Notes under the pieces: model-generated
Database searches by the model: none
What the model saw: only the letters and a program-made list of their open reading frames with translations
What the model was told of the DNA's origin: nothing
NCBI GenBank assembly: GCA_029194465.1
Contig: JARFXS010000001.1
Location: 62,001-126,000 of the forward strand
Source: Candidatus Nitrosocosmicus sp.
GTDB lineage: Archaea > Thermoproteota > Nitrososphaeria > Nitrososphaerales > Nitrososphaeraceae
Reading direction: 5' to 3'
Length of the DNA: 64,000 nucleotides
Made by a program: the position numbers and the translations under genes
Shown here: piece by piece, positions 18,644 through 56,723 of the stretch
How the letters are laid out: each line of letters opens with the position of its first letter
How positions within the stretch are numbered: position 1 is the stretch's first letter

Positions 18644-19360
18644 ATGAATATTAACACTCCCCTTGACAGACTGACCCTTGTTTCCATATCTCTTATGATC
18701 ATCCCAATCTTTATTCTGGCATATTCGAGTCCCCCATGGATTACAGAAATTTACATATATGGCCAAGAGACTAATTCTTCTAATACAGATGAATTTTTAT
18801 TAAATATCAATCAAACTTATTTGTCTTTAATTCCTCTAATGATCGAGGAAGTTCAAAACACCAATGCTAGTGATATCCCGATCAAGCAAATAATGGAGGC
18901 AACTCCTTCCAATGCAACAGCCCTCCAAGATATTGTCAAAAATAATTCTAATAAAGCAGCTCAAAACAAAGACCGTGCTACTTTAAACAATGCTACTGTC
19001 AACAACAGCAATACCTCTAGACCTCAGGATCTCATTCCAGTCGTTGTTAATATGACTCAAAACACCAATGCTAGTGATATCCCGATCAAAAATATAATTA
19101 ATACTGTTCCTTCCAATGCAACAGCCCTCCAAGATATTGTCAAAAATAATTCTAATAAAGCAGCTCAAAACAAAGACCGTGCTACTTTAAACAATGCTAC
19201 TGTCAACAACAGCAATACCTCTAGACCTCAGGATCTCATTCCAGTCGTTGTTAATATGACTCAAAACACCAATGCTAGCGACTTGGGATTCATGCGAATT
19301 ATTAATGCATTACCAGGATACGATAACTCTGAATCCAATAGTAAGAATTTCCTAAAATAA
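18644..19360 (+). CDS. Secreted tandem-repeat protein rich in N-glycosylation sequons
   Basis: Unrecognised 238-residue protein. The N-terminus has a hydrophobic segment (LVSISLMIIPIFILAYSS, about 11-28) acting as signal peptide or anchor. The rest is polar and consists of two 68-residue repeats plus the start of a third. Each repeat has NASDIPIK, SNATALQDIVKNNSNKA, LNNATVNNSNTSRPQD and VVNMTQ, giving about seven N-x-S/T sequons per unit. No cysteine is present in the repeats and no domain is known to me. It follows the beta-helix gene on the same strand. A role as a heavily glycosylated surface protein is inferred from composition only. Confidence 0.7.
   Translation: MNINTPLDRLTLVSISLMIIPIFILAYSSPPWITEIYIYGQETNSSNTDEFLLNINQTYLSLIPLMIEEVQNTNASDIPIKQIMEATPSNATALQDIVKNNSNKAAQNKDRATLNNATVNNSNTSRPQDLIPVVVNMTQNTNASDIPIKNIINTVPSNATALQDIVKNNSNKAAQNKDRATLNNATVNNSNTSRPQDLIPVVVNMTQNTNASDLGFMRIINALPGYDNSESNSKNFLK
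18853..19282 (+). repeat. 204-bp tandem repeat, two full copies and a partial third
   Basis: Copies begin at 18853, 19057 and 19261, each with TCAAAACACCAATGCTAG. The long block from CCTTCCAATGCAACAGCCC through GTTGTTAATATGACTC recurs almost base for base in copies one and two; differences cluster around the ATCAAGCAAATAATGGAGGC segment. Period 204 keeps the frame (68 codons). The near-identity suggests a recent duplication or ongoing homogenisation. Confidence 0.88.
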
Positions 19361-45329: not shown

Positions 45330-45498
45330 CTTTTTTTCAAAAATAATTTATCTACGTATTATTTTCAATAATCTCAAGTTAATATCAAAAATATAGTAAA
45401 AAATTCGATATGTTTGAGATATAATATATAAATTGTTAATTTTTCTATAAAAATATTATATGTAAATTTTAAAAACAACCCCATACTAATACTTTCTA

Positions 45499-45954
45499 AT
45501 GAATTTTATTAAATATGCAGTAGGGATGTTCGTTTTTGCAGGAATTATCTCTTTAATAGCCGGTAGTGGTGGAAATTATTTCACCCAATCAGTAAATGCT
45601 CAATCTTTAGGTGAACAAGTTGGCAATAGTATAGGAGGAGCATTGGATCAAGCTGGTGAGGCAGCTGGTAATGTAACAGAGACCTTAAGTAGTGCAGCAA
45701 ACGACACCGCAAGTGAAGTTGGTCAAGCAGCAGACAATGCAACAGAAGGCGCAAGCCAAGCAGCAAACGACACCGCAAGTGAAGTTGGTCAAGCAGCAGA
45801 CAATGCAACAGAAGGCGCAAGCCAAGCAGCAAACGACACCGCAAGTGAAGTTGGTCAAGCAGCAGACAATGCAACAAGCGGAAACAGTACAAATGCAACA
45901 GAATCCAAGAATCCATTGGAAATGTTAATGAATTTGTTCAAGGGAAATAAGTAG
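45499..45954 (+). CDS. Secreted alanine-rich 11-residue-repeat protein
   Basis: Unrecognised 151-residue protein with a signal peptide (MNFIKYAVGMFVFAGIISLI, cleavage likely after VNAQ near 35). The mature chain is built of 11-residue units alternating AANDTASEVGQ and AADNATEGASQ, repeated to about residue 127. This 11-mer periodicity with A/D/T/E/Q recalls late-embryogenesis-abundant proteins. Nearly every unit contains an N-x-T sequon (NDT or NAT). A short C-terminal tail reads NPLEMLMNLFKGNK. It is flanked by AT-rich spacers and appears single-gene. A role in stress protection or as glycosylated surface filler is inference. Confidence 0.72.
   Translation: MNFIKYAVGMFVFAGIISLIAGSGGNYFTQSVNAQSLGEQVGNSIGGALDQAGEAAGNVTETLSSAANDTASEVGQAADNATEGASQAANDTASEVGQAADNATEGASQAANDTASEVGQAADNATSGNSTNATESKNPLEMLMNLFKGNK
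45694..45876 (+). repeat. 66-bp tandem repeat, two full copies and 51 bases of a third
   Basis: Copies start at 45694, 45760 and 45826 with GCAGCAAACGACACCGCAAG. The first two are identical by eye over 66 bases; the third matches for 51 bases and then diverges. Each copy codes for 22 residues (two 11-mers). Confidence 0.92.
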
Positions 45955-55937: not shown

Positions 55938-56723
55938 ATGGCAAAAGGTTCCAGACGAGGGGGCAGGGTACGTGATAAATGGAGAGATAAACAATGGATT
56001 ATAGTAAATGCTCCGCCCGCATTTGACAGAGTCCCTCTAAATTATATCCCAATTTCCGATGTTAGCAATGCAAAAGGAAGGGTAATTGAAAATACATTGT
56101 ATGATGTGCTAAAACAAGATCCAACCCAACATCAAACTAAGATTTTTGTTCAGATTGATAAGATTAATTCTGGAATGGCTTCAACAATATTTAAAGGACA
56201 TGAATATGCTAAAGAGTTTCTACGAAGTCTCATCCGACGAGGAAGTTCTATGATAAATTATGTTGATGAATACACTACGTCAGATGGTTATGTTTTTAGG
56301 GTATCTGCCACAGCTTTTAGTCAACGAAGAATAAATTCAGCAAAAAAACATGAAATCCGGCTGTCTATGGCCAATTTACTTGCTGAAAAAATTCCTGTAC
56401 TCTCTCTTGATGAATTTGTGAAAGAGGTGACTATGGGAAAAATGAGTTCTGAAATGATGGATGTTGCAAAGAAAATAGCCATTATCCGTCATGTGGGTGT
56501 AAAGAAAACTAAGCTTCTGTCCTCTCCACTACCTGGTAATGAGGATAAAGCCAATTCTGAAGTTTCTACAGAAGCCAATTCTGAAGTTTCTACAGAAGCC
56601 AATTCTGAAGTTTCTACAGAAGCCAATTCTGAAGTTTCTACAGAAGCCAATTCTGAAGTTTCTACAGAAGAGGATGTTGTAACTTCATCCAAAGAAGAAT
56701 TAGGCAAAGAAGCAGTCGCTTAG
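55938..56723 (+). CDS. Small ribosomal subunit protein eS1 (S3Ae) with repeated acidic tail
   Basis: The first 205 residues are a normal eS1: KWRDKQWIIVNAPPAFDRVP, GRVIENTLYDVLKQDP, KIFVQIDKINSGMASTIFKG, FLRSLIRRGSSMINYVDEYT and SAKKHEIRLSMANLLAEKI. The next part is unusual: five repeats of ANSEVSTE followed by EDVVTSSKEELGKEAVA, making the protein acidic at its C-terminus. Homologues have short tails. The ATG at 55938 follows an AT-rich spacer of about 295 bases. It leads a block of RNA-processing genes. Confidence 0.94.
   Translation: MAKGSRRGGRVRDKWRDKQWIIVNAPPAFDRVPLNYIPISDVSNAKGRVIENTLYDVLKQDPTQHQTKIFVQIDKINSGMASTIFKGHEYAKEFLRSLIRRGSSMINYVDEYTTSDGYVFRVSATAFSQRRINSAKKHEIRLSMANLLAEKIPVLSLDEFVKEVTMGKMSSEMMDVAKKIAIIRHVGVKKTKLLSSPLPGNEDKANSEVSTEANSEVSTEANSEVSTEANSEVSTEANSEVSTEEDVVTSSKEELGKEAVA
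56551..56670 (+). repeat. 24-bp tandem repeat, five copies
   Basis: GCCAATTCTGAAGTTTCTAC plus AGAA repeats five times without change, coding for ANSEVSTE each time. The identical copies indicate recent expansion; the unit of eight codons keeps the frame. Confidence 0.95.

Follow-up and report, generated by a model that had tools for sequence, protein, structure and literature searches.

A 151-residue repeat protein encoded in the window, the whole 64,000-nt stretch of Candidatus Nitrosocosmicus DNA analysed here, may be a small exported N-glycan carrier for the outer coat of this genus of ammonia oxidisers from soil, a reading from sequence to which we give a probability of about 0.5. The density of N-X-S/T sequons was the feature constant across all 14 orthologues of the gene, amounting to 8.4 ± 0.7 per 100 residues in 14/14 compared with about 3 in shuffles, which corresponds to a spacing of roughly one sequon per 12 residues. 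The draft genome that contains the window is 84% complete. The gene and its parts are as follows.

45499..45954, + strand: predicted exported, sequon-rich repeat protein of 151 aa (ATG open reading frame; syntenic orthologues in 14/15 Nitrosocosmicus genomes)
45459..45480, + strand: promoter-like conserved 22-nt element TATGTAAATTTTAAAAACAACC, with the ATG 19-40 nt downstream (upstream alignment of 14 orthologues)
45499..45600, + strand: signal-peptide-like N-terminus, residues 1-34, MNFIKYAVGMFVFAGIISL...VNA/Q (sequence; conserved in 14 orthologues)
45601..45693, + strand: mature N-terminal segment QSLGEQVGNSIGGALDQAGEAAGN... (alignments; conserved throughout the 11-genome clade, lacking in the 3-genome clade)
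45694..45876, + strand: 2.8 identical 66-bp units, AANDTASEVGQ-AADNATEGASQ, with two sequons each (Tandem Repeats Finder)
45877..45912, + strand: short linker before the C-terminal motif, with two further sequons, NST and NAT (sequence)
45913..45942, + strand: C-terminal motif PLEMLMNLFK (family PLDxxMNLFK), a short predicted amphipathic helix and proposed tether (conserved in 14/14 orthologues)

The protein began its mature part with QSLGEQVGNSIGGALDQAGEAAGN and ended with PLEMLMNLFKGNK, and the peptide of the proposed C-terminal tether was PLDMLMNLFKGNK. Its hydrophobic N-terminus ended in VNA/QS. Hydrophobic N-termini with a signal-peptidase-like A/Q or A/QS site, assigned by eye from the sequence, were found in 14/14 orthologues; this signal-peptide-like segment may be a cleaved export signal or, alternatively, an uncleaved signal anchor. 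The 22-nt element TATGTAAATTTTAAAAACAACC was nearly invariant upstream of the ATG in 14/14 orthologues. Four genomes were scanned for further copies. At 0-1 mismatch the element occurred only at the repeat-protein gene, and sites with three mismatches were no more frequent than with a reversed-pattern control. A promoter shared by a regulon was thereby ruled out in these four genomes, where the repeat-protein gene was the sole carrier.

The first-pass annotation was right on the open reading frame, the sequons and the identical 66-bp copies. At 45694-45876, 2.8 copies of the 66-bp unit stood in tandem with 100% identity, and each half-unit of the array carried one NDT or NAT, in agreement with the sequon described for nearly every unit. 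The "exact 11-residue period" was not confirmed. The true period was 22, with a residue identity of 0.72 at lag 22 versus 0.23 at lag 11, and the two 11-mer halves were identical at 3/11 positions in the register originally set and at 4/11 in the best rotation (p=0.61). The half-unit DNATEGASQAA resembles DNLTSSASQGT, an 11-mer that occurs in tandem in a distant orthologue (6/11 matches, p=0.003), so the ancestral form may have been an 11-residue sequon cassette. In the closest relative, G013, the protein was 97% identical and had one exact unit fewer, with an 18-mer in that place. Every unit in the window contained NDT and every 22-mer unit of G013 contained NNT; the copies have therefore been homogenised within each genome. 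This homogenisation, seen on comparing copy number between relatives, supported the recent expansion that had been suggested from the identical copies.

A profile search of 70 genomes of the family detected the gene in 14/15 Nitrosocosmicus genomes. No orthologue was found among the 55 other family genomes, with two weak matches outside the genus. Five of the six named relatives of the gene were held in Candidatus Nitrosocosmicus records and the sixth in a MAG labelled Nitrosopumilus. No literature was found on the repeat protein, nor on LEA proteins in Nitrosocosmicus. The orthologous proteins had lengths of 103-194 aa and occupied one slot in 14/15 genus genomes, downstream of a Na/Ca exchanger gene and adjoining a radical-SAM gene. 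The radical-SAM gene adjoined the orthologue in ten relatives (G002, G003, G005, G006, G007, G009, G010, G012, G013 and G014), and the exchanger lay beside it in the same ten, save G006, where the contig ends. The orthologues of G001, G008 and G011 were missed by the first protein search and were then found 157-160 bp downstream of the exchanger, as reading frames with the same start, the same end (SGPLD.IMN.FK) and a very different middle. In the exchanger tree, these three genomes branched together as sister to the ten others sampled. In G004, which is 95% complete, both the gene and the exchanger were missing. The radical-SAM neighbour (L064, L066 and others) shared the strand of the gene in the window and its close relatives and was inverted in G002, G003, G005, G007, G008, G009 and G011. 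Four further loci of similar architecture, L013, L014, L016 and L027, were rejected as orthologues, with 0/10 tested flanking genes on those stretches, and were treated as analogues or distant paralogues.

The C-terminal PLDxxMNLFK motif was under strong purifying selection. Among the 11 helical-clade orthologues, pN/pS was 0.03 for the ten C-terminal codons (55 pairs) and about 0.3-0.4 for codons 1-60. The motif was also the part best predicted by AlphaFold, the hydrophobic N-terminus aside. The middle of the protein ranged from 62 to 149 residues over the 14 orthologues and varied in copy number and composition. It was Ala-rich and helix-periodic in 11 genomes, with a main repeat unit of 18, 21, 22 or 25 residues, and Ser/Thr-rich in three (G001, G008 and G011). 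A true 11-mer tandem was present in one orthologue, the Ser/Thr-rich chain of G011. AlphaFold models, which had a mean pLDDT of 46 and 49 and were used solely for where helix was drawn, drew the middle as helix in one clade and as coil in G011, with two terminal helices common to both at low confidence. The PDB fold search with the model of pLDDT 46, too uncertain for this purpose, gave no match. The profile search of PDB sequences returned chance-level matches only, and NCBIfam gave weak compositional matches, for example to Ag473 lipoprotein, far under the cut-off.

Sequons were enriched beyond composition. The mature chain of the window protein held nine, where composition-matched shuffles gave 2.4 (p about 1e-4). 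Counts above shuffles were obtained for 13/14 orthologues (p<=0.024), including 11/11 of the helical orthologues at p about 0.001 or less. The exception was G008, with five sequons versus 3.0 expected from composition (p=0.14) and one sequon lost (NLP). In the three Ser/Thr-rich orthologues, the X of the sequon varied and N and T/S stayed (NFT/NMT/NLT, NTT/NTS, NGT/NGS). The sequon count followed the length of the middle over 62-149 aa with r=0.95 (n=14), a correlation that is inflated because the orthologues are related and not independent samples. These data bear on unselected drift of the repeats, in which the ends would be functional, for example as a small exported peptide acting via PLDxxMNLFK, the middle would be filler and the sequons would result from an N/S/T-rich composition and unit copying. 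Such drift would fit the C-terminus as the most constrained part, the copies homogenised within each genome and the G008 count inside the range expected from composition. However, the sequon excess in all helical orthologues, a near-constant sequon density over two unlike backbones and a helical phase kept while the unit length changed argue against it, and we consider it rather unlikely.

An AglB-family STT3 gene was present in 15/15 genomes of the genus, and the four loci that were read all contained WWDYG. In the window's draft genome, the AglB-like gene (L099, G000:C4:24500-30500) showed a frame change near codon 482, at which the identity of its protein to that of G013 dropped from 99% to 54%, reflecting either an assembly chimera or a real change.

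A role as glycan carrier is supported by the syntenic gene in 13 relatives together with a sequon count that tracks length, and by the Ser/Thr-rich orthologues, which keep both ends and the sequons. It is further supported by the AlphaFold models, in which the two clades share only the terminal helices (low confidence), and by the combination of AglB-family STT3 throughout the genus with purifying selection on the C-terminus. Counting against it are the non-significant sequon excess of G008, the lack of the gene in G004 and the use of NDT, which in eukaryotes makes a weaker sequon than NAT. The biology of the genus adds further support. At the level of the genus, the literature reports no recognisable S-layer genes for Nitrosocosmicus, and cryo-tomography of two strains showed no S-layer lattice and hair-like structures of about 30 nm, which may represent a glycocalyx of glycoprotein or glycolipid (PMC11559005). 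No component of this outer layer has been conclusively determined (PMC11559005). N-X-S/T sites have been demonstrated to carry N-glycans in the related Nitrososphaera viennensis (PMC12153357).

In the proposed mechanism, the chain would be exported through the general secretory pathway and AglB would put glycan on many of its sequons. The C-terminal PLDxxMNLFK helix, a tether proposed from its conservation, or an uncleaved N-terminal helix would fix the chain to the membrane or keep it within the matrix, and the glycan-clad middle would project as one element of a hair-like glycocalyx on the S-layer-free cells. The backbone would then be an interchangeable spacer and the number of sequons the selected property. 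Across the orthologues, length and composition of the low-complexity chain drift freely by expansion and loss of units, with the sequon density staying. The gene is a specific, nearly genus-wide candidate for a coat component, and its syntenic copies can be checked in existing proteomes. Orthologues that swap the backbone and keep the ends and the density of potential N-glycan sites also offer an unusually clean case for separating glycan-site selection from structural selection.

The helical periodicity of the middle was considered separately. In 11/14 orthologues, the hydrophobic moment at 98-102 degrees was coherent along the whole middle and exceeded both plain shuffles and unit permutations (unit-permutation p=0.0002-0.0018). 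No helical moment was found in G001 and G008 (p 0.89 and 0.81). Most sequon Asn lay on the polar side in the helical clade, a result that the hydrophobicity scale makes partly automatic. The amphipathic phase is real in the 11 orthologues, and a helix may form there under some conditions. An amphipathic-helix surfactant or lipid-surface protein in the style of apolipoprotein, perilipin or phasin, coating membranes, vesicles or hydrophobic substrates, would match unit lengths of 18, 21, 22 and 25 residues, all of which close on nearly whole helical turns, and the weak Pfam matches to Apolipoprotein, Senescence and phasin models. These matches scored far under the curated cut-offs (18.0 bits vs 90 for Apolipoprotein, 17.5 vs 24.6 for Senescence) and were read as a generic amphipathic-helix signal, so that identity with any of the three families was rejected. 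The hydrophobic face was almost purely alanine, the same chain held nine sequons, G001 and G008 lacked a helical moment and no helix was modelled in G011. A surfactant function is unlikely on these grounds.

The first-pass annotation had also interpreted the protein as an extracellular, LEA-like glycoprotein. Its export, probable N-glycosylation and recent repeat expansion stood as inferred properties; the likeness to LEA proteins did not. The 11-mers of group 3 LEA proteins have acidic and basic residues alternating on the polar face. No Lys or Arg was found inside the repeats of any orthologue, the unit length was not kept and the helix was absent in the sister clade. The loss of the 11-residue period in homologues, named at the outset as grounds for rejection, was largely what was found: most orthologues had units of 18, 21 or 25 residues, and in G001 and G008 the period was missing together with helical periodicity. 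G011 kept an 11-residue unit, but without a modelled helix. The LEA_4 profile (PF02987) matched 0/11 members at E<=1, and a LEA_4 search of the 15 genus genomes gave no match, with controls equally silent. This profile is a weak test, because six idealised TAQAAKEKAGE copies also reached only 15.3 bits vs a cut-off of 51.1. The rejection of group 3 LEA membership therefore rests on the missing basic residues, the unit length and the loss of the helix in orthologues. Hydrophilins are defined by Gly above 6% and a hydrophilicity index above 1; the protein passed the first limit with 11.2% Gly and failed the second with 0.56 (GRAVY -0.56).

Comparison with group 3 LEA proteins (PF02987, LEA_4) showed Ala-rich repeats, 11-residue half-units and predicted disorder with helical potential as shared traits. 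In contrast to them, the window protein is predicted to be exported, is rich in sequons, lacks basic residues in its repeats and has a period of 22, with 18, 21 or 25 in relatives and no helix seen in three orthologues. A broader form of the proposal is an LEA-like protectant outside the cell, whose disordered chain would form amphipathic helices on drying and shield the cell surface. The Ala-rich repeats with a helical moment above the unit-permuted null in 11 orthologues and the single long helix of the AlphaFold model, at the very low confidence expected for a disordered chain, are consistent with it. Members of the genus are soil-dwelling (PMC12448741), and short LEA 11-mers suffice to raise the drying survival of E. 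coli (PMC8670023). Set against this are the repeats without Lys/Arg, a hydrophilicity below the hydrophilin limit, the lack of an LEA_4 match, although the idealised consensus also stayed under the cut-off, the changing unit length and the missing helical moment in G001 and G008, and we regard such a protectant as quite improbable. L017, from another genus of the family (G029), was cytoplasmic-looking, with Lys/Glu-rich tandem HEAKEAASDVG 11-mers, no sequons and no signal, and was much nearer to classic group 3 LEA proteins than the window protein. A type I antifreeze-like ice-binding protein, an Ala-rich 11-residue helix with regular Thr, was rejected on composition and period as very improbable, since the likeness of Ala, Thr and Asn in 11-residue half-units was superficial, Ala made up 22% of the mature chain, Thr were spaced 10 and 12 residues apart and the period was lost in orthologues.

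For an N-glycan carrier, the nearest known counterparts are mucin-like or sequon-rich coat proteins, such as trypanosome mucins or procyclins and CD52. The window protein resembles them in its short, putatively exported chain, low-complexity repeats, potential glycan sites as the conserved feature and a free number of repeats. The window protein differs from the mucin-like proteins in being archaeal, in its predicted N-linked sites, where theirs are mainly O-linked, and in having no recognised lipid anchor or transmembrane end. The S-layer and multicopper oxidase glycoproteins of N. viennensis (PMC12153357) are exported proteins of Nitrososphaerota with N-X-S/T sites and the AglB route, traits predicted for the window protein as well. 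They are large and folded, whereas the members of the repeat family are low-complexity chains of 103-194 aa from a genus that has no S-layer. A second Nitrosocosmicus family (L002, L021, L023-L026, L028-L030) comprised small exported-type proteins, MNNNILFTII...FAQNVT...NETGEAAGNATEGL..., that were widespread in the genus. Its 18-residue unit with two sequons (NETGEAAGNATEGLG...) occurred in varying number and was very similar to the unit of the G010 and G012 orthologues, and its start was also signal-peptide-like. The start itself, the C-terminus (IQDVVNGSS) and the genomic place were different. Tentatively, the gene and its sequon-rich siblings could be glycocalyx backbones that replace the lost S-layer, archaeal N-linked 'mucins' with an exchangeable backbone and a glycan density held by selection; this wider proposal is possible but doubtful. 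Similar sequon-rich exported proteins exist beyond the S-layer-free genus (L016 and L018, from other genera), a wider occurrence of the kind that counts against the carrier reading.

Two further repeat-containing reading frames were observed in the window. Of 94 ORFs, the one at 18644-19360 (+ strand, 238 aa) had the densest sequons, 7.1 per 100 aa. It contained a tandem repeat of 204 bp (2.1 copies, 95%), began with a hydrophobic N-terminus and matched no Pfam family above the cut-off. At 56548-56670, a 24-bp unit was repeated 5.1 times at 100% identity, encoding repeats of ANSEVSTE close to the C-terminal end of a + strand ORF.
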